Source of the DNA: an uncultured Spirochaetaceae bacterium
GTDB lineage: Bacteria > Spirochaetota > Spirochaetia > Sphaerochaetales > Sphaerochaetaceae
NCBI GenBank assembly: GCA_900315435.1
Contig: OMYY01000003.1
Span: forward strand, 45,382-109,381
Reading direction: 5' to 3'
Length of the DNA: 64,000 bases
In this document: positions 28,931 to 45,516 of the stretch, piece after piece
Position numbering within the stretch: the stretch's first letter is position 1
Layout of the letters: the number at the start of each line of letters is the position of its first letter
The notes under the pieces: model-generated
Told to the model about the DNA's origin: nothing
The model's input: only the letters and a program-made list of their open reading frames with translations
Database searches by the model: none
Program-made: the position numbers and the translations under genes

Positions 28931-30238
28931 TTAGAGGTTGTCCTGCGTCGCGTACTCAAGGTCGAGCAATGCGCAGAGGTATGTGTACTGATCGCTCATC
29001 TTGCCAAGCTTTGCCTGGTTGAGTGCTTGCTGCGCGTCGTTGACGTCCAGCAGTTCCGAGAAACCGGTCTGATAGGCTTCGCTCGTCATATCGTAGGATT
29101 TCTGCGCGAGGGTGATGTTGCGCTCGGCGCTCCCGATTGCCTCGCGTGCCTGGTCGAGCTCATCCAGCAGGTTGGTGATTTCCAGGTGTGCGTTGGCGTT
29201 CAGGGTGTTGCGGGTCACCTGCATCTTCTCGATGTTCTGCTTCAACTGCCGGGCGCTCTGCCGGTTGCTCGACCAGGGGAGGGCGTTGGTGACGTTGAAG
29301 GAGAGGCCGAAGGAAAGGGAACCCTGGTCGGTCCAGTTGCCTGAATCCCGGTCGAACCACTTCTCCGAGATATCGGCGATCGTCGGGGTTCCCGATGCGC
29401 TTGCCACGAAAACCGGGTAGAAGGAGCTCTGGTCGAGCATCTTCAGCTGGGTGTCCAGCATGGCGGCCTGCTGTTCCAGGTTCCGGATATCGAAGCGGTA
29501 TCCGATGCGGCTGTAGGCACGGGCAGCGTCGACGTCGACGAACTCGGTCTCGATCGGAGTGGTCAGATGCAGCTCGACCGTCTCGTCCATGCCGAGCACG
29601 AAAGCAAGGTTGCGTTTCTGCTCGTTGACCGACTGGCGGGCCTTCTTGACGGTGGCAAGCTGGTTCTCGTAGGCGACCTGGGTCTGCAGGTAGGCGAGCT
29701 CGCTGGCATACCCGTCGTGGTACTGTTGTTCGGTCTGTTCCATCCGCTCCTTCTGGTTCGCCAACGTTTCTTCGCTGATCTCCAACGACTCCTGCTGGAG
29801 CAGGATGGCGTAGTAGAGCTTCTTGACGTTCACCTTGGTGTCGGCGACCGCCTGGTCCCAGGTCAGCTGTCCGTTCTCGTACTTTTGCCTGGTCAGTTCC
29901 ATCTGGGTCAGAAGGGCCGGGGTGAAGTTCCAGGAGAAGGAGAGGTTGGTCACCAGAGACCAATTCGGATCGGTAGTGGTATAACCGCTCGCCGTGTAGG
30001 ATCCCACTTCGTTCCTGCGTGACATCATCGTGTTGACCTGCATGGTCGGCAGCAGGCTGTTCCAGCTTGTCTTGTCGTCCTTCTCAAGGATTTCCAGGTC
30101 GATGCGGCTGGACTGGAGGGTACGGCTGTGCTGGAGCGCGTAGTCCACTGCTTGGTCGACGCTCAGGTCAAGGGCGGAGGCCGAGGCGGCAACCAACAGC
30201 ACTGCCGCCAATGTGGTAAAGGATTTCTTGTGCATCAT
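28931..30238 (-). CDS. TolC-family outer-membrane efflux channel
   Basis: A 435-residue protein with an export signal (MMHKKSFTTLAAVLLVAASA) and two outer-membrane-efflux-protein repeats rich in coiled coil, e.g. LANQKERMEQTEQQYHDGY and QTGFSELLDVNDAQQALNQA. It forms the trimeric exit duct of the tripartite pump. The start overlaps the stop of the TetR gene as ATGA (stop 30237-30235), with AAGGAGAT just upstream, indicating translational coupling to the regulator. Confidence 0.94.
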   Translation of the reverse strand: MMHKKSFTTLAAVLLVAASASALDLSVDQAVDYALQHSRTLQSSRIDLEILEKDDKTSWNSLLPTMQVNTMMSRRNEVGSYTASGYTTTDPNWSLVTNLSFSWNFTPALLTQMELTRQKYENGQLTWDQAVADTKVNVKKLYYAILLQQESLEISEETLANQKERMEQTEQQYHDGYASELAYLQTQVAYENQLATVKKARQSVNEQKRNLAFVLGMDETVELHLTTPIETEFVDVDAARAYSRIGYRFDIRNLEQQAAMLDTQLKMLDQSSFYPVFVASASGTPTIADISEKWFDRDSGNWTDQGSLSFGLSFNVTNALPWSSNRQSARQLKQNIEKMQVTRNTLNANAHLEITNLLDELDQAREAIGSAERNITLAQKSYDMTSEAYQTGFSELLDVNDAQQALNQAKLGKMSDQYTYLCALLDLEYATQDNL

Positions 30239-31311
30239 GCAATCTCCTTGTTGATACCGTGATAGAGGAAGTCGATCATCGCCTCCAGGGTGAGTCCTGA
30301 CGGGGTGTCTTCCAGGGCGATCGATAGACTTGCGGGAAGCGTGACCATGAAGATCCCGCTTCCTGCGCAAAGGGCTTCCAACGCGTCGTAGGCCCGGAGC
30401 ATATCGGGATACGCTTTGAAGACCGTGCGCTGGGAAAAGGCGACATACAACCCGTCGATGAACTTGGCCGTGTCTACCTGGCAGGACAGGTAGCTGTATA
30501 CGGTCCGGATGATGGTTTCGATCAGGACGGGAATCTCCATCTGCTCGTCCAAGTGGGATTCGACCACGCCAAGCATCCGGTTGATTTCTTCGGTGGCGAT
30601 ACTGGCCAGCATCTCGTCCTTGTCCTTGAAAGAAGAGTAGAGCGTGCTGGGCGCCACCCCGAGCGCTTGGGCGAAATTCGCCACGGAGACGCTCTGCATG
30701 CCACTTGCGTGGAGCACTGCATCCAGCGCCTTCAGGTACCGGCAATCCCCGATTTCCTCCGGTTTGACCACCGTCCGCTGGAAATCGACCGTCCCTCGCT
30801 CCATCTGCAACCCATTCTGGAAGAGGGCAAGCAACTGGTCTATCAGCGGCTCGACCTGTTTTTTCTTTTGCAGCTTGGCGCAGATGATCTGTGAGCCGAT
30901 CTGGCTGAGGTAGCACACCATGGCGAAGAACATCAACGGCGTCCCCTTGTGGGGGATCTGCTTGTCCTTGACCAGTGTTTTGGTGGAGAGCCTGCGGCTG
31001 ATGATCAGCTGCAGGTGAAAGGCGCACTCGTTGACATGGTCGAGCAGGAAGTTGCTTGCTGCAAGCATAGCCGCTTTCGAATCCATCGTCTCAAAGGTCG
31101 AAGCCAAGGCTTCCAGTTGGGCTTGCACATGGACGAAAGTCGCGTCGTCCAGCTCCTGCTTGTTGCGGAAGTAGTGGAAAAGGGCCGGTTTGGAGACCCC
31201 CAGCTCTTTGGCCACACGGGAAAGTGATACCTCGGACCAGGGAGACCAGGACAAAAGGGAGATATAGGTGGTGATAATTGTTTCTTGACTTAGTTTCATC
31301 ATTTTTGCCAT
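30235..31311 (-). CDS. TetR-type repressor with two DNA-binding domains
   Basis: At 358 residues it is far longer than the ~200 usual for TetR proteins. It contains two TetR-like helix-turn-helix units: residues ~9-56 (VAKELGVSKPALFHYFRNK) and ~192-236 (FAQALGVAPSTLYSSFKDK). Each is followed by a helical segment like a ligand domain, so the protein looks like two TetR proteins joined head to tail. It heads the efflux operon and is preceded by three palindromic operators overlapping the promoter, so autoregulation is expected. The ATG at 31311 has only a weak ribosome site; M4 (31302) is an alternative. Confidence 0.9.
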   Translation of the reverse strand: MAKMMKLSQETIITTYISLLSWSPWSEVSLSRVAKELGVSKPALFHYFRNKQELDDATFVHVQAQLEALASTFETMDSKAAMLAASNFLLDHVNECAFHLQLIISRRLSTKTLVKDKQIPHKGTPLMFFAMVCYLSQIGSQIICAKLQKKKQVEPLIDQLLALFQNGLQMERGTVDFQRTVVKPEEIGDCRYLKALDAVLHASGMQSVSVANFAQALGVAPSTLYSSFKDKDEMLASIATEEINRMLGVVESHLDEQMEIPVLIETIIRTVYSYLSCQVDTAKFIDGLYVAFSQRTVFKAYPDMLRAYDALEALCAGSGIFMVTLPASLSIALEDTPSGLTLEAMIDFLYHGINKEIA

Positions 31312-33649: not shown

Positions 33650-35251
33650 TCAGTGCTTCAGGCTGGCGGCGATCAGGCCGCAGAAGAGCGGATGCGCCTT
33701 GTCCGGCCGGCTCTTGAACTCGGGATGGTACTGGACTCCGACGAAGAAGGGGTTCTCTTTTGGGGAGAGCTCGACAGCCTCGACCAGCCGGCCGTCCGGG
33801 CTGAGACCGGCAATGACCAGCCCCTTGTCCTGCATCTGCCCGCGGTAGTCGTTGTTGAACTCCCACCGGTGGCGGTGACGTTCCTCGATATGGGTGGTAC
33901 CGTAGCATTCCTCCAGGATTGTGCCTTTCCTGATCTCGCAAGGATAGGCGCCCAGCCGCATCGTTCCCCCTTTGGGAATGTTGCCCCTCTGGTCCGGCAT
34001 CAGGGCGATGACCGGATGGGTGGTATCCGGATTGAACTCGGTGGAGGTGGCGTCGTGGAAGCAGAGCACGTTCCTGGCGAACTCGATGACGGCGATCTGC
34101 ATGCCAAGGCAGATGCCCAGGTAGGGCTTGTGATGGGTCCTGGCATAGCGGCAGGCCTCGATCATTCCTTCGATGCCCCGTTCGCCAAAGCCACCGGGAA
34201 CCAGAATGCCGTCAGCCGATCCAAGCAGCTTGTCGGCACTCTTTTCGGTCACGTCCTCCGCCTCGACCCAGTTGATCGTCACGTTGGCGCCATTGTGCCA
34301 GGCGGCGTGCTTCAACGCCTCGTTGACGGAAAGGTAGGCGTCCTTCAGCTCCATGTACTTGCCCACCATGGCGATGGTGACCTGTTTTTTCGCCTCGTTG
34401 GCCCGGTCGATCATCGCCTGCCAGGCGGTCAGATCGATCGGTTTGGTCTCCATCCTCAGCTCGCGACAGACGATGTCGTCGAAATGCTGCTCGTGCAGCA
34501 TCAACGGCACCTCGTAAAGGATGTTGCAGTTGCGGTTCTCGATGACACAGTCCTGCTTGACGTTGCAGAAAAGGGCGATCTTGTCCTTGACCGACTGCTC
34601 GATCGGCATGTCGCTGCGGGTGACGATGATGTCGGGAAAGATGCCGCTGCTCATCAGCTCCTTGACGGAGTGCTGGGTCGGTTTGCTCTTGTGTTCTCCG
34701 CTGGAACGCAGGTAGGGGACCAGTGTCACGTGGATGAACAGGCAGTTGCCAGGGCCCAGCTCGTGGCTGATCTGTCTGATCGCCTCGAGGAAGGGCTGGC
34801 TCTCGATGTCGCCGATTGTGCCGCCGATTTCCGTGATGACCACGTCGGCCTTGGTGCTCTTGTCCAATGCGTAGATGAACTCCTTGATCGCATTGGTGAC
34901 ATGGGGAATGATCTGGACCGTCTTGCCCAGGTACTCGCCCCGGCGTTCCTTGTTCAAAACCGACCAGTAGGCCTTGCCGCTGGTCAGGTTGGCGTACTTG
35001 TTCAGATTCTCGTCGATGAAACGCTCATAGTGCCCAAGGTCCAGGTCGGTCTCCGCACCATCGTCGGTCACGTAGACCTCGCCATGCTGCAGGGGGCTCA
35101 TGGTGCCCGGGTCGACATTCATGTAGGGATCCAGCTTCTGGCTGGCTACCTTCAATCCGCGGCATTTCAACAGCCGTCCGAGAGAGGCAGCGGTGATGCC
35201 TTTCCCAAGGCCGGAAACCACTCCTCCCGTCACAAAAATATGTTTGGTCAT
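33650..35251 (-). CDS. pyrG: CTP synthase
   Basis: A 533-residue enzyme making CTP from UTP, ATP and glutamine. The synthetase domain starts [20 protein letters not shown] and has the family motifs [19 protein letters not shown] and [14 protein letters not shown]. The glutamine amidotransferase domain has the nucleophile cysteine in LGICLGMQ and the His/Glu pair in [10 protein letters not shown]. Full length and intact. The start overlaps the ANTAR gene stop by 4 bp, so it belongs to the nitrogen operon. That makes sense because it consumes glutamine. Confidence 0.97.
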
Positions 35252-35817
35252 TTCGCACCTCGATTGAGAATTTCATCGGCTATGGCGGCGCGGCTCAGAC
35301 GCCTGTCCATCGCCTGTCTTTCGATAAATTTATGGGCGCTCTCCTCGTCCATACCCCGGCGGATCAGGACCCATTTGGCCTTGTCGACCATCCGGATTTC
35401 CTCGATTTTCCGTTCCAGTGACCGGTTCCGTTCCTCCATTCCGTGCATGCGGGCCCGCATCGCCCGGGACAGGCTCAGCGCCTGCCAGAAAAGTTCCTTG
35501 ATCAGGGGTTTGGATACGACAAGGACTCCCTCCCGTTCCATTTCGTCCTTGATGGAACCGATGTAGATATCCCTGACCAGCATGATGACCGGAGCGGAGG
35601 ACTGTTCGGTAATCATGCGCACCAGGTCCTCGCCAAGGCCGTGCTCCATCGGGGTGTTGACCACCACGAGGTCCCAGTCCTCGTCAAGCACCTTGGTCCG
35701 GGCGTCGGAGGCGGAAGGACTGATGGTGAGCGAGACTGCCCCCTCATGCGTCTCGATGAGGGACTGGAGCGCCTTCGCTCCTTGCTCGCTGCGTGAAACC
35801 ACCAGTATCCGTTCCAT
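35248..35817 (-). CDS. ANTAR-domain response regulator (RNA-binding antiterminator type)
   Basis: A 189-residue protein. Residues 1-118 form a receiver-like domain ([22 protein letters not shown]) in which the usual acidic pair and phospho-aspartate are not clear, so it may not be phosphorylated in the standard way. A coiled stretch leads to an ANTAR domain (about 130-185) with [19 protein letters not shown] and the terminal helices [20 protein letters not shown] domains bind hexaloop RNA hairpins and prevent termination. It sits between glnA and pyrG, 24-bp or less from each neighbour, and is the obvious candidate to act on the glnN and glutamate synthase leaders at 40.4-40.6 kb. Confidence 0.92.
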
Positions 35818-35818
35818 G

Positions 35819-37051
35819 CTATGTCGTCAGGAAGTAGCGGCTGACACTGTCACCCGACTCCTGGTACGCCTCCCATTCGCTCTCCTTGGCCTTGAGATAT
35901 CCATCAAGCATCCTCTCGTTCATCGCGTCTCTGAGAAACACGCTCTTGCGGGCGATGGCAAGCGCCTCGCCCAGGTTGCCTGGCAGGTCGTTGCCTGCGT
36001 AAGCGGGCATGGCCATCTGATGTTCCAACCCTTCCACCGCCGCCCTGATAAGCAGTGCGTACGTCAGGTAGGGATTGCAGGAAGGGTCAGGGGAGCGCAC
36101 CTCGAAGCGGGTGTATGCCCCCTTGGCTGCAGGGACTCGGACAAGAAGGCTCCGGTTGGAGTCACCCCAGCCGATATGGATCGGCGCTTCCCAGCTGCCA
36201 AGCCGCTCATAGCTGTTTGCCAGAGGGTTGGCGAAGACGGTGATCTCCGAGATATGGCTGAGGATGCCGGCGATCATCTGCTCGTGCTTTGCCGTATCCG
36301 GCTCCCGGAGGGACATGTTCACATGCAGGCCGCTGCCGCTCTCGTCGGGAATCGGTTTGGGAAGAAAGGAGGCGAACATACCGCTACGGTCCGCCATCAT
36401 CCGCACCACGTTCTTGAAGAGAATCGTGTTGTCGGCAGCTTCCATCGGCTCGCCGTAGCGGAAATCGATCTCGTTCTGGCCTGGGCCGCTCTCGTGGTGG
36501 CTGCGTTCGGTGTAGAAGCCCATCTCCTCCAACGTCAGGCAGATGTTGCGCCTGACATCTTCGCCTCGGTCAAACGGAGCGGCATCAAAGTAGGTGCCGG
36601 TATCGATCGGGGTGCGGGTCGGATTGCCTTCCGGATCGCACTTGAAGAGATAGAACTCGCACTCCGGCCCGATGGAGAAATCGTAGCCTTTCCGATAGGC
36701 GCTCTCTACCGTGCGGGCAAGGTAGCCGCGGCTGTCACCTTCGAAAGGGGTGCCGTCCGGCTTGCGGATCGAGCAGAACATGCGGACTACCCGTCCTTGG
36801 GCCGGCCTCCAGGGAAGCAGGGAGAGGGTGGTGGTGTCAGGAAAGAGAAAGAGGTCGGACCTGTCCGAATAGAGGAAGCCACGGATCGACGAGGCATCGA
36901 AGCTGATGCCGCTTTCAAAGGCGCGGGGCAGCTCCTTGCTGGAGATGCTGATGTTCTGCAGGTTTCCGAAGATGTCGCAGAAGGACAACTTGACGAACCT
37001 GACATCCTGTTCCCTGACGAACTGCAGTACGGACTGTTCGGTCGTATTCAT
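35819..37051 (-). CDS. glnA: Glutamine synthetase, type I
   Basis: A 410-residue GSI enzyme making glutamine from glutamate, ammonia and ATP. Motifs: beta-grasp start (VRFVKLSFCDIFGNLQNIS), metal ligands in GPECEFYLF and GPGQNEIDFRYG, GSGLHVNMSL, and the C-terminal NPYLTYALLIRAA. It is shorter than enterobacterial GlnA and I see no adenylylation-site tyrosine motif, as in GSI-alpha forms. The start at 37051 follows AAGGAGGAAG. Lying beside glutamate synthase parts it completes a GS/GOGAT unit. A second, type III enzyme is encoded divergently. Confidence 0.94.
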   Translation of the reverse strand: MNTTEQSVLQFVREQDVRFVKLSFCDIFGNLQNISISSKELPRAFESGISFDASSIRGFLYSDRSDLFLFPDTTTLSLLPWRPAQGRVVRMFCSIRKPDGTPFEGDSRGYLARTVESAYRKGYDFSIGPECEFYLFKCDPEGNPTRTPIDTGTYFDAAPFDRGEDVRRNICLTLEEMGFYTERSHHESGPGQNEIDFRYGEPMEAADNTILFKNVVRMMADRSGMFASFLPKPIPDESGSGLHVNMSLREPDTAKHEQMIAGILSHISEITVFANPLANSYERLGSWEAPIHIGWGDSNRSLLVRVPAAKGAYTRFEVRSPDPSCNPYLTYALLIRAAVEGLEHQMAMPAYAGNDLPGNLGEALAIARKSVFLRDAMNERMLDGYLKAKESEWEAYQESGDSVSRYFLTT

Positions 37052-37061
37052 GACTTCCTCC

Positions 37062-37781
37062 TTACGCGTAGGTGTACAGTTGCCGGTACGGATTGGACGA
37101 GTTGGGTTCCAATACGGAAAAATGATGTGCAAGCAGGCTTTCTTTGTCTAGTCGGAAACGATGGCAATACGGCTCAATCAGGCGTGAGATATGTTCCATG
37201 TCCTCGCTGGTGGCATCCCGATGAAGTACCTTGTCGGGAAGATCCTCCGGCTTGTCTCCAGCAAGGAAGATGGTTCCGCCGTACATGCCACGGGCGCAGC
37301 AGGGACCCACAAGGGAACCGGAGACGTGCATGCCGAGGACGACGATCGTTCCTCCGGCCTGGTATTCCCCGAGGAAGGAGCCGGCCGAGCCGCCGATGAC
37401 AATCAGGGGCTGGCGTTCCTGATAGGCCTTCATGTGGATGCCGCAGCGGTATCCGACCGAGCCGCCAACCAGGATCTCGCCTCCGCGCATCGCGTAACCG
37501 AGGGCGTCACCGGCACTGCCGGTGACAATGATGCTGCCGCCGTTCATCGTATCTCCCGCCTGGTCCTGGACGTTCCCGTGTACGACAATCTCGCTGCCGT
37601 CGTTCAGGGCGCCGGTGGCGTTGCCCGCGGTGCCTTCGATGGTGATCGAGTAGCCTTTCAGGCCACAGCCGATATAGCGTTGCCCGTTGACCCCGCAGAG
37701 CAGGAACTTCCGCTCCTTGCTGGTCCGGATCATCTGGTTCAAGGCTTCCGCCTGCATTCCCTGTACATTGATTTGCTGCAT
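37062..37781 (-). CDS. Glutamate synthase GXGXG-domain protein (GltB C-terminal part)
   Basis: A 239-residue protein made almost entirely of the right-handed beta-helix seen at the C-terminus of large glutamate synthases. The repeated turns GTAGNATGALNDGSEI, GNVQDQAGDTMNGGSI and GSAGDALGYAMRGGEI show the GxxGxxxG periodicity. In split systems it is a separate subunit that structurally supports the synthase domain and ammonia tunnel. The stop of the FMN subunit gene is one base upstream, and glnA starts 10 bases beyond its stop. Confidence 0.93.
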   Translation of the reverse strand: MQQINVQGMQAEALNQMIRTSKERKFLLCGVNGQRYIGCGLKGYSITIEGTAGNATGALNDGSEIVVHGNVQDQAGDTMNGGSIIVTGSAGDALGYAMRGGEILVGGSVGYRCGIHMKAYQERQPLIVIGGSAGSFLGEYQAGGTIVVLGMHVSGSLVGPCCARGMYGGTIFLAGDKPEDLPDKVLHRDATSEDMEHISRLIEPYCHRFRLDKESLLAHHFSVLEPNSSNPYRQLYTYA

Positions 37782-37782
37782 A

Positions 37783-39282
37783 TCAAGCTCCTGCGTGGCT
37801 GATGCCGAGGATTTCCAGCTCGGGCTGGGTCAGACCAATGCCCCTGAGCATGGCGCGGTTGCCTCTGAGCGCCTCGATCGAGTTGATGCCCATGCCCCCC
37901 ATCATCTCCACCACCTCGCTCTTCCAGCCGGTGATCAGGTTGACCAGGTGCTGCGCTCCCGCCTCCGGGTCGAGCCTGGCTACCAGGTCGGGGCGTTGGG
38001 TTGCGATGCCCCAGTTGCAACGTCCGCTCTGGCAGGTGCGGCAGAGGTGGCAACCCAATGCGATCAATGCGCTGGTGGCGATCGATACGGCGTCCGCTCC
38101 CAAGGCGATTGCTTTGACCACGTCGGCGGAGCTGCGGATCGAGCCGCTGACGACGAGGCTGACCCGGTCGCGGATGCCCTCGCTGCGCAGCCTCCGGTCG
38201 ACCGCCGCCAAGGCAAGCTCGACCGGGATGCCGACGTTGTCCCGGATCCGTTTCGGGGCTGCCCCGGTACCGCCACGGAAGCCGTCGATGGTGATGATGT
38301 CGGCACCGCTGCGGGCGATGCCGCTGGCAATCGCGCTGATGTTGTGCACCGCTGCGACCTTGACGATCACCGGCTTGGTGTAGCCGGTCGCCTCTTTCAG
38401 GATCGAGACCAGCTGCCTGAGGTCCTCGATCGAGTAGATGTCGTGATGCGGGGCGGGGCTGATGGCGTCCGACCCTTCAGGCACCATGCGGGTGCGGGCG
38501 ATGTCGCCCACCATCTTGCTTCCCGGAAGATGCCCGCCGATGCCAGGCTTGGCTCCCTGTCCCATCTTGATTTCGATGGCCGCGCCGGCGTTCAGGTAGG
38601 CCGGCTCGACGCCGAAGCGTCCACTGGCGACCTGGACGATGGTGTGGGGTCCGTATGGGTAGAAATCCTTGTGCAGTCCGCCCTCTCCGGTGCCGTAGAA
38701 GGTGCCGAGCCGCTCGGCGGCCATGGCCAGCGCCTTGTGCGCGTTGTAGCTGATCGAGCCATAGCTCATGCCGCTGAAGAGGATTGGCAGGGAAAGCTCC
38801 AAGAGCGGATGGCTGTTGGGGACGATGCGTCCGTCCTTGTCCCGCTCGATCGGACAGTGCTTGTTGCCCAGGAAGGTCTTGGTCTCCATCGGTTCCCTGA
38901 GGGGGTCGATCGAGGGGTTGGTCACCTGGCTGGCCCCGATCAGGATCTTGTCCCAATAAATGGGGTAGGGCTTCGGACACCCCATGGAGGAGAGCAGTGC
39001 CCCTCCACTTTCCGCCTGCCGGTAAATGTCCTGGATGTTCTCCGCACGCCAGCCGGCGTTCTCCCGGAACGTCTGGGGATTCTTGACGATCCGGATCGCG
39101 TGGGTGGGGCAGAAGATGGTGCAGCGCATGCAGTCGACGCACTTGGTCTCGTCCGCCACCATCCGGTTCAGCTTGCTGTCGTAATGATGTACTCCGTTGG
39201 CGCATTGCCGTTCACACTGCCGGCAGACTGTACAGCGCTCCCGGTCCCGTTCCACGAGGAATTCCGTAATCTGATAGTCCAT
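37783..39282 (-). CDS. gltB: Glutamate synthase FMN/Fe-S synthase subunit with N-terminal ferredoxin domain
   Basis: A 499-residue protein. Residues ~12-65 carry two [4Fe-4S] motifs (CTVCRQCERQC and CVDCMRCTIFC). The rest is the FMN-binding barrel of glutamate synthase (GMSYGSISYNAHKAL, GAKPGIGGHLPGSK, TIDGFRGGTGAAPK). It makes glutamate from 2-oxoglutarate and ammonia. No NADPH-oxidising GltD is nearby, so electrons probably come from ferredoxin. The ATG at 39282 follows GGAGGG, one base after the preceding stop. Confidence 0.94.
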   Translation of the reverse strand: MDYQITEFLVERDRERCTVCRQCERQCANGVHHYDSKLNRMVADETKCVDCMRCTIFCPTHAIRIVKNPQTFRENAGWRAENIQDIYRQAESGGALLSSMGCPKPYPIYWDKILIGASQVTNPSIDPLREPMETKTFLGNKHCPIERDKDGRIVPNSHPLLELSLPILFSGMSYGSISYNAHKALAMAAERLGTFYGTGEGGLHKDFYPYGPHTIVQVASGRFGVEPAYLNAGAAIEIKMGQGAKPGIGGHLPGSKMVGDIARTRMVPEGSDAISPAPHHDIYSIEDLRQLVSILKEATGYTKPVIVKVAAVHNISAIASGIARSGADIITIDGFRGGTGAAPKRIRDNVGIPVELALAAVDRRLRSEGIRDRVSLVVSGSIRSSADVVKAIALGADAVSIATSALIALGCHLCRTCQSGRCNWGIATQRPDLVARLDPEAGAQHLVNLITGWKSEVVEMMGGMGINSIEALRGNRAMLRGIGLTQPELEILGISHAGA

Positions 39283-39283
39283 C

Positions 39284-40384
39284 TCACATACCCTCCACAT
39301 GCACGACGACCGGTTCTCCGCCACGCGGGGCGAACAGGTTTTCCACCTCGGGCTCGACGGCCCTGATGGCTGCTTCCTCGCTGGCGAAATAGGTCATGGA
39401 GCCCTTCGACCCGGATACCAGGCTGCGGAGTTTCAGGCGGTCGTTCAATGCCATCAACCCTCCCGTGAAGCCGATCAGGATACTGAACGGACCGGTGACG
39501 AGGAAACTGCTGTAGGTAGTCCTCAGATAGGTCGCCAGCTGTTTTTCCCTGTCATGCATGTGCTCGATCTCGAACCAGAAGGGAGCGGCGAGGATTTGCG
39601 CCGTTTCCCTGAAGGAAAGACCCTTTCGCCGGTGCAGGTAGTCGAGCATGTAGGTGATCACCTCGGTATCGGTCGAAAGCGTGCAACGGTAGCCGAACAT
39701 CTCGATCGCCCTCCGGTTGGCGTCGTAGCTGGAGATTTCTCCGTTGTGCACCACCGTGGTGTCCAACAGGGCGAACGGATGGGAGCCTCCCCACCAGCCA
39801 GGAGTGTTGGTCGGGTACCTTCCATGCGCGGTCCAGCAGTAGCCTTCATATTCGTCCAAGCGGTAGAAACGCCCGACGTCCTCGGGATAGCCGACGGCTT
39901 TGAAGACTCCCATGTTCTTGCCTGAGGAGAAGAGGTAGGCTCCCTTGATGGTCGAGTTGATATGGATGGCGCTGCGCACGACGAATTCCTGTTCGTCAAG
40001 CTGGCTTTCCGCCAGTTTGGTGGGGGATGGCGCGACGAAATAGCGCCAGATCAATGGCTCATCGGTGATTGCTTTGGTCCGGGTGACCGGAATCTTGGAG
40101 AGGTTGATCACGTCGTAGTACTCGTCCAGGTAGGCTTCGGTCTGCTTCTTTGCGTCGGTCGAGTAGAAGAAGAGATGGAATGCGTAGAAATCCTTGTACT
40201 CAGGGTAGATGCCATAACCGGCAAATCCACCTCCCAGACCATTTGACCGGTCATGCATGACACTGATGGACCTGATGGCGGCATCGCCACTGAAGCGTCT
40301 GCCAGTCCGGTCGATCAATCCGCAGATCGCGCACCCGCTGGGGATGTGTTCTCGTCCTTCCAGAAAACCTTCTTCGCCTGTCAT
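39284..40384 (-). CDS. Class II glutamine amidotransferase subunit of the split glutamate synthase
   Basis: A 366-residue Ntn-type amidotransferase that releases ammonia from glutamine. The likely nucleophile is C18 in [16 protein letters not shown], so a short N-terminal propeptide would need removal. Further motifs are [13 protein letters not shown] and [15 protein letters not shown], and [12 protein letters not shown] resembles the PurF/GltB glutaminase fold. It is the first gene of the nitrogen operon, with AGGAG upstream of the ATG at 40384, directly downstream of a leader with a terminator-type hairpin. Confidence 0.9.
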
Positions 40385-40406: not shown

Positions 40407-40464
40407 AAAAAAGGCGTCCGGTATCGACACCTTTCTTGGTGCAGGTACCGGACGCCTTTGTCCG
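40407..40464 (-). promoter_or_regulatory. Leader attenuator of the glutamate synthase operon
   Basis: On the minus strand two exclusive structures are visible. First: CGGAC (40464-40460), hexaloop AAAGGC (40459-40454), GTCCG (40453-40449), a 5-bp hairpin. Second: AAAGGCGTCCGGTA (40459-40446) pairs perfectly over 14 bp with its complement at 40423-40410, followed by six T (40412-40407), an intrinsic terminator. The loop plus 3' strand of the first is the 5' arm of the second. Inside the terminator loop a smaller hairpin (CACC/GGTG) can form. Confidence 0.85.
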
Positions 40465-40478
40465 TGTGTTGCGTGATG

Positions 40479-40507
40479 AGTGTACCGTGGGGATGGAAAA
40501 ATGTCCA
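40479..40507 (-). promoter_or_regulatory. Promoter of the glutamate synthase operon
   Basis: TGGACA (40507-40502) and TACACT (40484-40479) with a 17-bp spacer on the minus strand. Transcription would start near 40472, about eight bases before the leader hairpin. Confidence 0.7.
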
Positions 40508-40521
40508 GCGCAAAAGGGGAG

Positions 40522-40550
40522 TTGACACAAACCGCAAGAAAGGGTATTAC
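40522..40550 (+). promoter_or_regulatory. Promoter of glnN
   Basis: TTGACA (40522-40527) and TATTAC (40545-40550), 17-bp spacer. Transcription would begin near 40557, just before the leader hairpin at 40560. The divergent promoter lies only 14 bp away. Confidence 0.75.
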
Positions 40551-40559
40551 CATCGACAT

Positions 40560-40601
40560 ACAGCAAAGGCGCTGTGGTTTCGGCCACGGCGTCTTTTTTT
40601 T
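40560..40601 (+). promoter_or_regulatory. Leader attenuator of glnN
   Basis: Exclusive structures as in the opposite leader. ACAGC (40560-40564), hexaloop AAAGGC (40565-40570) and GCTGT (40571-40575) form a 5-bp hairpin. Alternatively 40565-40577 pairs over 13 bp (two G-T pairs) with 40584-40596 and runs into eight T (40594-40601), a strong intrinsic terminator 19 bases before the glnN start. The hexaloop is identical to that of the glutamate synthase leader although the stems differ. Confidence 0.85.
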
Positions 40602-40619: not shown

Positions 40620-42707
40620 ATGGAAACTATTGCGGACTATTTTGGCGAGTATGTGTTTAACGATGCCGTCATGCAGAAGCGTCTTCCGAAAGAGACTTAC
40701 CGTCAGTTGAAGGAGACGATCAGCAAAGGCAAGGATCTCGATTTGAGTATCGCCAACGTCGTCGCCAGCGTCATGCGTGACTGGGCCTTGGAGAAGGGAG
40801 CCACCCATTTCACCCACTGGTTCCAGCCGATGACGGGCATCACCGCGGAGAAGCACGACGCCTTCATCGCCCCTGCCGGTGGCGGACGGGTGATCATGGA
40901 GTTCTCCGGCAAGGAGCTGGTCCAGGGCGAGCCTGACGCCTCTTCCTTCCCCTCGGGAGGGCTGCGGGCAACCTTCGAGGCCCGTGGCTACACTGCCTGG
41001 GATCCGACGAGTTACGCCTTCGTCAAGGGCACCACGCTGTATATTCCGACCGCCTTCTGCTCCTATTCCGGCGAGGCGTTGGACAAGAAGACCCCGCTAT
41101 TGCGCAGCATGGAGGCTCTGAACGAGCAGGCAAAGCGTATCCTGCACCTGTTCGGCCATGACGAGGTGGGCAGGGTGATGACCACCGTCGGCAGCGAGCA
41201 GGAGTACTTCCTGGTCGACAAGGAACAGTTCCGCAAGAGACCCGACCTGGTCTATACCGGCCGCACCCTGTTCGGTGCCCGTTCTCCGAAGGGGCAGGAA
41301 CTGAGCGACCACTATTTCGGTTCCCTCCGACCGCGGGTCATGAGCTACATGGAAGATCTGGACAAGGAACTGTGGAAGCTGGGTGTCTACGCCAAGACCC
41401 GCCACAACGAGGTCGCCCCGAGCCAGCATGAGCTTGCCCCGGTCTTTACCCAGAGCAACGTCGCCACCGACCAGAACCAGCTGACGATGGAGTTGATGCG
41501 CAAGATTGCCGACAAGCACGGTCTTGCCTGCCTTTTGCACGAGAAGCCGTTCGACGGGGTCAACGGAAGTGGCAAGCACAACAACTGGTCCATGTCCACC
41601 GATACCGGCATGAACCTGCTCAACCCTGGCGACAATGCCAGCGAGAATGCCCAGTTCCTGCTGTTCCTCTCGGCCGTCATCGCCGCTGTGGACGACTACC
41701 AGGAATTGCTCAGGGTCAGCGTCGCTTCGGCCGGCAACGACCACAGGCTCGGTGCCAACGAGGCTCCTCCTGCCATCATCAGCATGTATCTCGGAGACGA
41801 GCTTTCCGGCCTGCTGGAGTCAATTGCCGCCGACAAGCCGACCGGCAAGAAGAGCAGGGAACAGATGCTGCTTGGCGTCCACGTGCTTCCGAAGTTCCCC
41901 AAGGACTCGACGGACCGCAACCGTACCAGCCCCTTCGCATTCACGGGCAACAAGTTCGAGTTCCGCATGCTGGGTTCTTCCTTCTCGGTCGCAGGCCCCA
42001 ATATTGTCCTGAATACCATTGTCGCCGACGAACTGTCCCTTTTTGCCGATCGTCTGGAAAAGGCCGAGGATTTCCAAAGCGAGCTGACCAAGCTGGTCAA
42101 GGAGAACTATCTCGCCCATAAACGGATTATTTTCAACGGCAACAACTACAGTCCGGAGTGGGTCGATGAGGCTGCCCGTCGCGGTCTTTCCAACCTGAAG
42201 GATACTCCGGCCGCGTTGGCCCGTTTCCTGGATCCGAAGAATGTGGAGGCATTCAAGAAGTTCCACATCTTCACCGAGACCGAGCTGAAGAGCCGCCAGG
42301 AGATTCTGATCGAGAACTATGCCAAGACCATCCATATCGAGGCTTTGACGGCAATCGACATGGTCCGCCAGCAGATCCTGCCCGCCATCTCCCACTACGT
42401 GGGCGACTTGGCCCAAAGGGTGGTGGCGCGCCGTGGAGTGAGCCAGTCTCTTGCCTGCAAGGCGGACACCGCGCTGGTCGAGCAGCTTGGCGGCATCGAG
42501 GACAAGCTCTATGATGCTGTCGGGACGCTAAGCGACGAGACGGAGAAGGCGGAGAAGCGCGAGCGTTTCGAGGCTGCGGTCTATTACCGCGACAAGGTGA
42601 TTCCGGCCATGGTCGAGGCTCGCAAGTACGCCGACCAGGCAGAGTTGCTGGTGGCAAGCAGTTATTGGCCGATGCCGACGTACGGCCAGTTGCTCTATAC
42701 CGTATGA
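40620..42707 (+). CDS. glnN: Glutamine synthetase, type III
   Basis: A 695-residue GSIII enzyme, the large form found in Bacteroides, clostridia and cyanobacteria. Signatures: [43 protein letters not shown] and [14 protein letters not shown]. Full length. The ATG at 40620 follows CTGGAGGTG and the leader terminator. It makes glutamine like GlnA, and the two synthetase genes are transcribed divergently from one control region. A stable hairpin and then asnB follow on the same strand. Confidence 0.96.
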
Positions 42708-42798: not shown

Positions 42799-44487
42799 AT
42801 GTGTGGTTTTGTAGGTCTTTTTGATGTAAAGAACGTAGATGGGTCCCTCCGTGCCAGCGTGCTGGAGGCGTCCAAGCGGATCCGCCATCGCGGCCCGGAT
42901 TGGTCCGGCGTCTTCACGGGCGAGCACTGCGTCATCAGCCATGAACGGTTGGCGATCGTCGACCCGCTTTCCGGGGGACAGCCCCTGAAGAGCAGGGATG
43001 GCAATCTGATCCTTGCGGTCAATGGCGAGATCTACAATCACCAGACGATCCGGAGCCGATATCCTGAAGGCACGTTCCTGACCAACAGCGACTGCGAGGT
43101 GATCCTTGCTCTCTACAAGGATATGGGCGACAGGCTTTTCGAGGAACTGAACGGCATCTTCGCCTTCTGCCTGTACGACAGGAAGGAGGACCGGTACCTG
43201 GTCGGTCGGGACCATTTCGGCATCATTCCCCTGTATCAGGGCTGGGACAAGGACGGCCACTACTGGGTAGCCAGCGAGATGAAGGCATTGGACGGGTTGT
43301 GCGACACAATCACCGAGTTCCCTGCCGGAAGCTACTACGATTCCCGCGAGGGAAAGGTGGTCCAGTGGTATCATCGCGACTGGATGGACAAGCCTGTCAT
43401 CGCCGATGATGGACGGACTCCCGAACAGTGTGCAGGAGATGTGCGTGTCGCACTTGAGGCTGCGGTCAAACGCCAGCTGATGAGCGATGTGCCTTACGGG
43501 GTGTTGCTCTCCGGGGGACTGGATTCCTCGGTCATCGCCGCCATCACCGCCCGCTACGCCAAGAAGCGCGTCGAGAGCCAGGACACTGAGGTCGCCTGGT
43601 GGCCGAGGCTGCACAGCTTCGCCGTCGGTCTTGCGGATTCTCCCGACCTGAAGGCGGCACGGCTTGCCGCCAAAGCCCTTGGTACAGTCCACCATGAAGT
43701 CCATTTCACTATCCAGGAGGCTCTGGATGCGGTGGATGATGTGATCTACCACCTGGAGACCTACGATATCACTACGGTCCGCGCCGCGACTCCCATGTAT
43801 TTGCTTGCCCGCTTCATCAAGAGCATGGGCATCAAGATGGTGCTGACCGGAGAGGGTAGCGACGAGCTTTTCGGGGGATATCTGTACTTCCACAAGGCTC
43901 CAAATGCCGAGGAGTTCCATCAGGAATCGGTCCGGAAGCTGGGCAAGCTTCACCTGTACGACCTGCTCAGGGCGAACAAGGCGTTGGCGGCCTGGGGTGT
44001 GGAGGGCAGGGTGCCTTTCCTCGACAAGGAGTTCATCGACGTGGCCATGCACCTTCCCACCAGCGTGAAGATGTGTTCCGGCGACAAAATCGAGAAGTGG
44101 GTGGTCCGCAAGGCCTTCGAGGACATGCTTCCTGCAGAGATCGTCTGGCGCCAGAAGGAGCAGTTCAGCGATGGTGTCGGTTACAGCTGGATTGATACTT
44201 TGAAGGAAAAGACCAGCCGCGAGGTGAGCGACGAGGAGTTCAGCCATGCGGCTGACCGTTTTCCGATCAATCCTCCCGCTACCAAGGAAGAGTACTACTA
44301 CCGTGTGCTTTTCACCCGCCATTTCCCGACTGCCAGCGAGGCCAAGTGCGTTCCCCACGAGGCGTCGGTTGCCTGCTCGACCGCAACGGCACTGAAATGG
44401 GACAAGATGTTCCAGAACATGGACGAGCCGAGCGGAAGAGCCATCTATGGAGTCCACGAGAAGGCGTACCGCCGGCCGAACGCATAG
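42799..44487 (+). CDS. asnB: Asparagine synthase (glutamine-hydrolysing)
   Basis: A 562-residue enzyme. Met-Cys at the N-terminus (MCGFVGLFDV) gives the amidotransferase nucleophile C2; RIRHRGPD, NGEIYNH and NSDCEVIL are glutaminase motifs. The synthetase domain has the ATP-binding loop LLSGGLDSSV and GEGSDELFGGY, with VEGRVPFLDKEF. It converts aspartate and glutamine to asparagine. A GAGGT site precedes the ATG. Its position after glnN ties it to glutamine supply. Confidence 0.96.
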   Translation: MCGFVGLFDVKNVDGSLRASVLEASKRIRHRGPDWSGVFTGEHCVISHERLAIVDPLSGGQPLKSRDGNLILAVNGEIYNHQTIRSRYPEGTFLTNSDCEVILALYKDMGDRLFEELNGIFAFCLYDRKEDRYLVGRDHFGIIPLYQGWDKDGHYWVASEMKALDGLCDTITEFPAGSYYDSREGKVVQWYHRDWMDKPVIADDGRTPEQCAGDVRVALEAAVKRQLMSDVPYGVLLSGGLDSSVIAAITARYAKKRVESQDTEVAWWPRLHSFAVGLADSPDLKAARLAAKALGTVHHEVHFTIQEALDAVDDVIYHLETYDITTVRAATPMYLLARFIKSMGIKMVLTGEGSDELFGGYLYFHKAPNAEEFHQESVRKLGKLHLYDLLRANKALAAWGVEGRVPFLDKEFIDVAMHLPTSVKMCSGDKIEKWVVRKAFEDMLPAEIVWRQKEQFSDGVGYSWIDTLKEKTSREVSDEEFSHAADRFPINPPATKEEYYYRVLFTRHFPTASEAKCVPHEASVACSTATALKWDKMFQNMDEPSGRAIYGVHEKAYRRPNA

Positions 44488-44515
44488 AATCATCAATCAA
44501 GACGATACAACGACA

Positions 44516-45516
44516 ATGGCAGGACGTCTGGAGGCCCCAGGCGTCCTGCTTCTATTCAACGAGGTGCAGCAATTTCCGCAGGCACGGGCTGCCATCAAAT
44601 ATCTGGTCGCCGATGGTCGCTATTTGTGTGTGGAGACAGGTTCTCTCGTTTCTACCCGTGAACATGTGAAAGATATCGTCATTCCGTCGGAAGAACGGCA
44701 CCTACGCATGTACCCCATGGATTTCGAAGAATTCATGTGGGCTATTGGCCAGGAGCTGCTGTACGATGAAATCGTCATGCACTTCCAGGAAGGAAGGCCG
44801 ATGGGGCAGGCGCTTCACCGGAAGGCTATGGACTGTTTCAGACAGTATCTGCTCGTGGGTGGAATGCCACAGGCTGTCCAAGAATACGTGGCATCGCATG
44901 ATTTTCCGGCTGTCGACGCAGTGAAACGAAGGATTCTGGACCTGTACCGTGGTGATATCCACAAGCACGCCGTGGACTATGAGCGGAAGGTCGAGGCAAT
45001 CTTTGACGAAATTCCTGAGCAACTGGGGCGCCATGAGAAAAGGTTCTTTCTCCCCTCTCTGGGCGGTGGAGCTCGTTTCCGAGAATATGAAAGTTCCTTT
45101 TTTTTGCTTGACGATTCCATGATCGTCACCATGCGTTTGACGAAGAGGTGATGGCCTCTGACTGTTGCTCGGAAAGCTGGAATGCAACGAAGGCATGGTT
45201 TTTGAGAATATGGTGGCACAGATGCTGACGGCATCAGGCCACAAACGTTACTTCTACGCAAACCCTGGAAAAAGAGAAGCGTCCGAACGGATGGAGATTG
45301 ATTTCCTGATTGCAAAGAACGCTATCACAAACCGGCACCACGTTTTTCCCCCCCCTCGATGTCAAGACCGGTTTCCTCCATACGCTCTCTTCGCTCAGGA
45401 AATTCATGGCCTTGTATCAAGAGCGGCTCCATATCCCGTATGTCATTCATGCAGGTGACTGGAACTGTGAGGACGGTATCATCTTCCTTCCCGCGTATAT
45501 GGCCGGACTCCTTTGA
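44516..45516 (+). pseudogene. Broken DUF4143-type AAA ATPase gene
   Basis: The translated pieces match the ATPase/DUF4143 family: LLLFNEVQQFPQARAAIKYL (Walker B region), YPMDFEEFMWAIGQE, LVGGMPQAVQEYV, then NEGMVFENMVAQML and MEIDFLI. The N-terminal Walker A part is missing. The first frame stops at 45151 after TMRLTKR. The rest continues in another frame from about 45165, with an internal loss of some tens of residues, and shifts again near 45345 at a run of C to reach DVKTGFLHTLSSLRKFMALY and the stop at 45516. At least two frameshifts, a 5' truncation and an internal deletion make it non-functional. It begins 29 bp after asnB. Confidence 0.88.

Follow-up and report, generated by a model that had tools for sequence, protein, structure and literature searches.

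The window, i.e., the whole stretch of 64,000 nucleotides that was analysed, comes from an assembly of 2.80 Mb in 85 contigs. By domain searches on the translations, it holds two divergent nitrogen units, one per strand. The minus unit comprises, in this order, a split glutamate synthase, a type I-like glutamine synthetase (GSI), a REC-like/ANTAR protein and a CTP synthase. The plus unit consists of a type III glutamine synthetase (GSIII) and an asparagine synthetase. Both units open alike: a predicted promoter is followed, after a few bases, by a hairpin with a hexaloop and by a terminator (Table 1). A model scan of the window found no such leader in the 91-nt gap before the asparagine synthetase gene. 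A scan of the genome contigs for the locus retrieved a near twin only (L043), whose ANTAR protein is 97% identical. In the neighbourhood, two adjoining open frames (44447-45458, plus strand) with pieces of AAA_14 and, below the cut-off, DUF4143 are probably the remains of one ATPase gene, and a protein of 358 residues with two TetR_N stretches (30235-31311, minus strand) is apparently a tandem TetR-like regulator.

Table 1. Genes and leader elements of the two nitrogen units in the window
Feature	Position	Strand	Basis
Glutamate synthase, amidotransferase-domain protein; gene 1 of the minus unit	39284..40384	-	PF00310; start codon by reading
Glutamate synthase, central/FMN protein with 4Fe-4S ferredoxin domains	37783..39285	-	PF01645 and Fer4 families
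Glutamate synthase, GXGXG-domain protein	37062..37781	-	PF01493
GSI, directly upstream of the ANTAR gene	35819..37060	-	PF00120, PF03951
REC-like/ANTAR protein, proposed antiterminator	35248..35817	-	PF03861, 46.1 bits (cut-off 27.3); PF00072, 26.1 bits (cut-off 30.2)
CTP synthase, 4-base overlap with the end of the ANTAR gene	33650..35251	-	PF06418, PF00117
GSIII; gene 1 of the plus unit	40620..42707	+	PF12437, PF18318
Asparagine synthetase, downstream of GSIII	42799..44487	+	PF00733
Predicted promoter of the GSIII unit: TTGACA (40522-40527), 17 nt, TATTAC (40545-40550)	40522..40550	+	by-eye reading; script score 10/12
Hexaloop hairpin ACAGC-AAAGGC-GCTGT	40560..40575	+	sequence reading, folding; covariation in relatives
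Intrinsic terminator, 5' arm = loop plus 3' arm of the hairpin; T run to 40601	40565..40596	+	consensus scan, folding; covariation in relatives
Predicted promoter of the glt unit: TGGACA (40507-40502), 17 nt, TACACT (40484-40479)	40479..40507	-	consensus scan
Hexaloop hairpin CGGAC-AAAGGC-GTCCG	40449..40464	-	sequence reading, folding; covariation in relatives
Intrinsic terminator that overlaps the hairpin in its loop and 3' arm	40410..40459	-	folding

Of terminators, the consensus scan listed only the one on the plus strand, and of promoters only the one on the minus strand. The promoter of the GSIII unit, the -10 of which has a terminal C, is thus absent from that list, and so is the minus terminator. 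The original prediction had proposed a 5-bp hairpin with the loop AAAGGC in either leader, and both are present where it had placed them; on the plus strand, a U.G pair lengthens the stem to 40559-40576. It had put the hairpins about ten bases past the promoter, which fits the plus leader (9 nt from the -10 hexamer) and only loosely the minus leader (14 nt). Its idea that hairpin and terminator are mutually exclusive is borne out by predicted folds of both leaders, the 5' arm of the terminator starting in each with the first loop base. The full leaders fold as terminators, with -22 (plus) and -34 (minus) kcal/mol (z -5.9 and -6.8), and none of 200 shuffles was equally good for either leader. 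Cut before the 3' arm of the terminator, they adopt the hexaloop hairpin with -7.0 and -8.4 kcal/mol (z -2.4 and -2.2; 5 and 7 of 200 shuffles equally good). Both loops match, as claimed, the ANTAR-type hexaloop with A in position 1 and G in position 4 (A1/G4). Also the ANTAR gene lies inside the controlled operon, as had been stated: the one in the minus unit is the single ANTAR match in the genome of the window.

The ANTAR gene is found in 87 and GSIII in 134 of 139 genomes of the family. For comparison, 80 loci were retrieved, which together with the window represent 79 of the 87 ANTAR-bearing genomes; L043, a duplicate of L070, was excluded from the strict and the relaxed scan. The strict scan covered 123 regions upstream of the window genes and of their orthologues in relatives and did not impose the class of the loop. 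It detected a hexaloop hairpin overlapping a terminator in 92 of these regions, as against 5 regions each for control loops of 5 and 7 bases. A1/G4 accounted for 92 of the 103 hexaloop matches, spread over 91 regions; upon base shuffling, the mean of ten rounds was 0.0 regions with A1/G4. Loops of 8 and 10 bases were seen in 38 and 22 regions; they are presumably the same hairpins with the inner pairs left open. Nine misses of the strict scan are operon-internal GSIII regions. A chance hairpin beside a terminator was rejected in view of the controls for loop length, loop class and shuffling and by the covariation reported below.

The relaxed scan required A1/G4 and overlap with a terminator and skipped most operon-internal GSIII regions. 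It called the element in 128 of 147 regions upstream of first genes (glt 55, GSIII 39, GSI 34), and these 128 leaders come from 73 of the 81 loci. As many of the rows stem from close relatives, the counts are those of sequences, not of events. Twelve of the 19 uncalled regions have the element when read. The uncalled GSIII region of L100 has a G1 loop, that of L114 is operon-internal, and the second GSIII copy in L147 has no element. In one ANTAR-bearing clade (L094, L095, L096 and L148), the glt regions have no leader, while GSIII keeps its element. The commonest loop of the 128 leaders is AAAGGC (72), followed by AAGGAC (24), AAGGGC (12) and AAAGAC (6); rarer ones are AAGGGT (5), AATGGC (4), AATGAC (3) and AACGGC (2). 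Position 2 is A and the loop-closing pair is C:G in all 128 leaders, neither being imposed by the search. The A/U base of the terminator also favours A at loop position 1.

Covariation was scored in an alignment of 45 rows, i.e., 46 non-redundant leaders minus the GltGAT leaders of L099 and L127, plus the plus leader of the window. The hexaloop stem reached 0.721 as compared to 0.281 ± 0.030 for shuffles and at most 0.153 for slid controls, a score that is biased upward since the rows had been preselected for at least three Watson-Crick pairs and A1/G4. In these 45 leaders, 91.1% of the stem cells are paired; the closing pair is C:G throughout (45/45), and the remaining four pairs each vary on both sides. 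The terminator scored 0.635 (shuffles 0.257 ± 0.015, slides at most 0.194). Because both scores exceed their controls, the shared 3' arm covaries with both its partners, which is what one would expect of a switch between two folds. A covarying stem around an invariant AAAGGC loop had been expected. The first half of this expectation stood; AAAGGC is not invariant, being found in 72 of 128 leaders, yet A1 and G4 recur. That the stems are under selection for structure is corroborated by the covariation above shuffles and slides and by the uniform C:G closing pair. Cleaner evidence comes from what was not imposed: the closing pair and loop position 2 of the 128 leaders, and the model matches outside the training loci. 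The model (R2), in which the terminator was scored as structure and the 5' arm as sequence only, still favours the first two pairs. In all 22 of its matches outside the training loci that were read, at least three Watson-Crick pairs adjoin the loop; the fourth position forms a Watson-Crick pair in 16 and a wobble pair in 3 of them, and is unpaired in the other 3.

Leaders of this kind have well-studied counterparts. In the eut leaders of Enterococcus faecalis, which are governed by EutV/EutW, an A1/G4 hexaloop likewise overlaps a terminator with its 3' part, the regulator is an ANTAR protein and the genes are nitrogen-related (PMC3369931, PMC8934654). NasR, which acts on the nasF leader of Klebsiella, selected in SELEX experiments A1 and G4 in a loop closed by a C:G pair, features that are common to the leaders described here (PMC7496416). 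In the predicted ANTAR regulons of Desulfotomaculum, targets precede genes of nitrogen assimilation, among them glutamate synthase, as here; they came, however, from a dual-hairpin model, whereas our leaders are single (PMC3369931). Spirochaetes are not mentioned in the main text of that paper.

Very probably, then, the two leaders are single-hexaloop ANTAR attenuators, and the ANTAR protein encoded at the locus binds the hairpin and thereby causes readthrough of both units. The predicted folds, their covariation, the conservation of loop and closing pair, the co-occurrence with the ANTAR gene and the further sites at nitrogen genes support this reading. Binding of the ANTAR protein, antitermination by this binding and nitrogen status as the signal are steps that we infer. 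Close to where each transcript is predicted to begin, the protein would catch the hairpin with its C-AAAGGC-G hexaloop; the bound hairpin would keep its 3' arm out of the overlapping predicted terminator, and the unit of glutamate synthase, GSI, ANTAR and pyrG would be read through together with the GSIII unit. Since the ANTAR gene is itself preceded by one of these leaders, the circuit would be positively autoregulated.

The element and the ANTAR gene track each other. The control with ANTAR-less genomes comprised 28 of the 52 such genomes of the family and 30 of 37 GSIII places, the seven second copies having given no locus; such a leader is missing from 27 of these 30 GSIII loci. The contigs of the three exceptions (G134, G067 and G142) end before the position that the ANTAR gene occupies in relatives. 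Within the family, model R2 was run on 20 of the 87 ANTAR-bearing genomes, many of which had contributed training rows. It reached at least 35 bits in all 20 of them and, among the 28 ANTAR-less genomes, in G134, G067 and G142 only, with up to 150 candidates per genome being scored (up to 19 in the class-wide count), so that all match counts are lower bounds. The top score in the other 25 ANTAR-less genomes, again among up to 150 candidates of each, was 33.4 bits in G009, where reading of the site revealed no hexaloop stem.

Class-wide (297 genomes, E 5e-4), the model matched in at least 45 of 52 genomes with and in at least 5 of 245 without ANTAR; among up to 19 candidates per genome, matches were absent or weak in 7 of the 52. 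Outside the family, from where no training rows had been taken, at least 14 of 21 ANTAR-bearing genomes were matched, and all 5 ANTAR-less matches also belong there. With laxer filters, 20 of these 21 were matched at E 0.02, with scores of 35 bits or more in 15. The lone genome without a match, G183, encodes a protein resembling EutV, whose receiver has Asp residues and whose ANTAR domain has Tyr. On reading, 22 of 30 non-family sites proved to have an A1/G4 hexaloop stem where the model puts it, in some cases with three pairs only, and one of the 22 has an A1/G4 hexaloop also upstream; in the other 8 there is no hexaloop stem at that place.

An attenuator run by something other than ANTAR, be it another RNA-binding protein, a small RNA or the rate of folding, appears unlikely. 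It draws on the fact that the link to ANTAR is one of co-occurrence, and on the five ANTAR-less genomes of the class that were matched; of the six sites read in them, one (G223) has a hexaloop stem. The co-occurrence itself argues against it, as does the preference of ANTAR domains for precisely a C:G closing pair, A1 and G4 (PMC7496416). Control by a leader peptide would demand a longer leader and a hairpin less close to the predicted start, and a search of the whole window with Rfam yielded no family at the gathering score. CsrA, which requires GGA in the loop, was rejected as regulator, since AAAGGC does not contain it.

The published systems use two hexaloops. Antitermination by EutV requires both hairpins, P1 and P2, in published work (PMC3369931, PMC8934654); the linkers of the eut leaders measure 5-12 nt, and 14 nt already impaired induction (PMC3369931), whereas here one hexaloop lies near the predicted start. 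The nasF leader has a two-hairpin motif, too, unlike the single hairpin here, and NasR senses nitrate by a domain of its own (PMC7496416). An actinobacterial survey retained dual stem loops only, with linkers of 2-25 nt (PMC8164766). The study of the EutV-RNA structure recast the binding unit as one hexaloop, kept two for antitermination and regarded single sites as needing more work (PMC8934654).

A P1 hexaloop was sought upstream in both window leaders and is absent, also within the published linker range of about 2-25 nt (PMC8164766); the hairpin that is there holds the position of P2, overlapping the intrinsic terminator. Because the defining P1 is lacking, the window leaders are not classed here among the dual-hexaloop ANTAR RNAs. 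A strong promoter match is present in 86 leaders. The -10 hexamer precedes the 4-bp stem by no more than 18 nt in 83 of them (median 11 over the 86); in those 83, the first base of the stem lies between 1 base before and 12 bases past the predicted start, from which the end of the terminator is 28-74 nt (median 45) away. Promoters so placed would leave no space for a second hexaloop. The single hexaloop per leader, taken from the outset for a minimal variant, is indeed the rule: 7 of the 128 leaders have a second A1/G4 hexaloop within 60 nt upstream, and four genomes of one genus have a P1-like hairpin, before glt only.

It is very unlikely that the leaders are ordinary dual-hexaloop targets that start further upstream, with an unrecognised P1 preceding the visible hairpin. 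Of course, the start sites are predictions, and three of the seven cases are glt leaders of the genus g18 (L071, L072 and L073), a fourth genome of which (L313) has a P1-like hairpin, too. The stem of the latter is TGAC/GTCA, that of the others AGAC/GTCT; the loops are AAAGAA, AATGAA and AATGGT. These loops overlap no terminator; their A1/G4 therefore points to a protein that reads the RNA. They follow directly after a -10-like hexamer, and the GSIII leaders of the same four genomes have a single hairpin. The seven upstream A1/G4 loops, however, are no more frequent than those of other classes (AA 9, GA 7), though above the shuffle mean of 2.5. The g18 linkers of about 25-42 nt, counted by hand, also exceed the 5-12 nt of eut (PMC3369931), and the close spacing of promoter and stem in 83 of 86 leaders speaks against a hidden P1 as well. 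Probably, the single-hexaloop leaders work like the dual-hexaloop ANTAR RNAs, as a variant of them.

The ANTAR domain of the presumed antiterminator scores well above its cut-off, while the receiver is weak and remains below (Table 1). Nearest by sequence among the solved chains are Rv1626 (1s8n), AmiR (1qo0), EutV (6wsh/6ww6) and the NasR-like 4akk. Residues were compared by alignment with these chains in 57 relatives, many of them close, L047 being left out. The place of the phosphorylated Asp is taken by Asn in the window protein and by N in 31, D in 23, E in 2 and K in 1 of the relatives; the first place of the acidic pocket is Asp in 1 of 57. An intact phosphorylatable receiver of the EutV type is thus not found in the window protein. 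EutV also has Tyr164, which stacks on G4 (PMC8934654); its place is His in the window protein and in 55 of the 57 relatives. Of these relatives, 52 have Glu in the place of Arg168, and all have retained Met172.

The exchange of the G4-contacting residues Tyr164 and Arg168, mostly by His and Glu, would argue against an ANTAR attenuator. So do the published requirement of EutV for two hairpins and the weak binding of a single one (P2) by NasR, at ~12 µM (PMC3369931, PMC8934654, PMC7496416), and also the ANTAR-bearing relatives that have no glt leader. AmiR, the ANTAR sequence of which is close to that of the window protein, has His at the place of Tyr164, too, and a receiver-like domain. It is controlled by a partner protein, AmiC, which is not a glutamine synthetase, and its target is the amidase operon. 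In the loci compared here, ANTAR has GSI as its immediate upstream neighbour in 55 of the 56 cases in which both genes could be located; L089 (G023) has no GSI there. Along its length, the GSI of the window can be aligned with type I enzymes of solved structure; its score of 331.5 is below the NCBI GlnA cut-off of 429.15. That it might be the sensor that gates the ANTAR protein is a guess. In Clostridium saccharobutylicum, which belongs to another phylum, the ANTAR-type gene of NitR is reportedly linked to glnA, a glutamine synthetase gene, and thus resembles the window locus.

Similar sites extend, as judged from their sequences, beyond the two arms of ammonia assimilation. The genome of the window has at least four model sites, the two of the window and two weaker ones of 29.5 and 28.7 bits, which precede an ilvE-like gene, resembling branched-chain aminotransferase (named by reading), and an ammonium transporter gene. 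In relatives, sites stand before asnB, pyrG, glutamate synthase and amtB genes (names by reading of the translations). The ammonium transporter of the window genome (L311:708-2447 on G000:C50) has a C-terminal PII domain, and its leader contains, by reading, two attenuator-like elements in tandem. Model matches were also seen upstream of transporter-like genes in L210, L211 (G123), L214 (G158) and L225 (G126), read as those of a BMP-like lipoprotein, an ABC permease, a solute-binding protein and an ABC ATPase; they are possible further targets.

The glutamine-consuming products of asnB and pyrG among the targets, together with the reported action of mycobacterial ANTAR targets on translation (PMC8164766), could suggest that ANTAR binds the hairpins to another end, acting in nitrogen excess or on translation or RNA stability. 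We regard this as extremely unlikely: the hairpin excludes a strong terminator that shows covariation of its own, with the proviso that the search had required the hairpin to overlap a terminator. The reading as ANTAR attenuators can, tentatively, be taken further. The spirochaetes might have a self-contained circuit, in which a receiver-degenerate ANTAR protein, gated by GSI as glutamine sensor, antiterminates a nitrogen regulon via a single, first-emerging hexaloop; it would need no recruitment hairpin, and the decision would fall within some 45 nt of the start. This extension is speculative, and we consider it rather doubtful.

Among open-licence papers, we found no control circuit for ammonia assimilation in spirochaetes; the present one is a concrete prediction of such a circuit. 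The leaders form a natural set from three families of one class, mostly with one hexaloop, while one genus keeps a P1-like hairpin on one arm. This single-hexaloop set beside the leaders of g18 makes the role of P1 directly testable.
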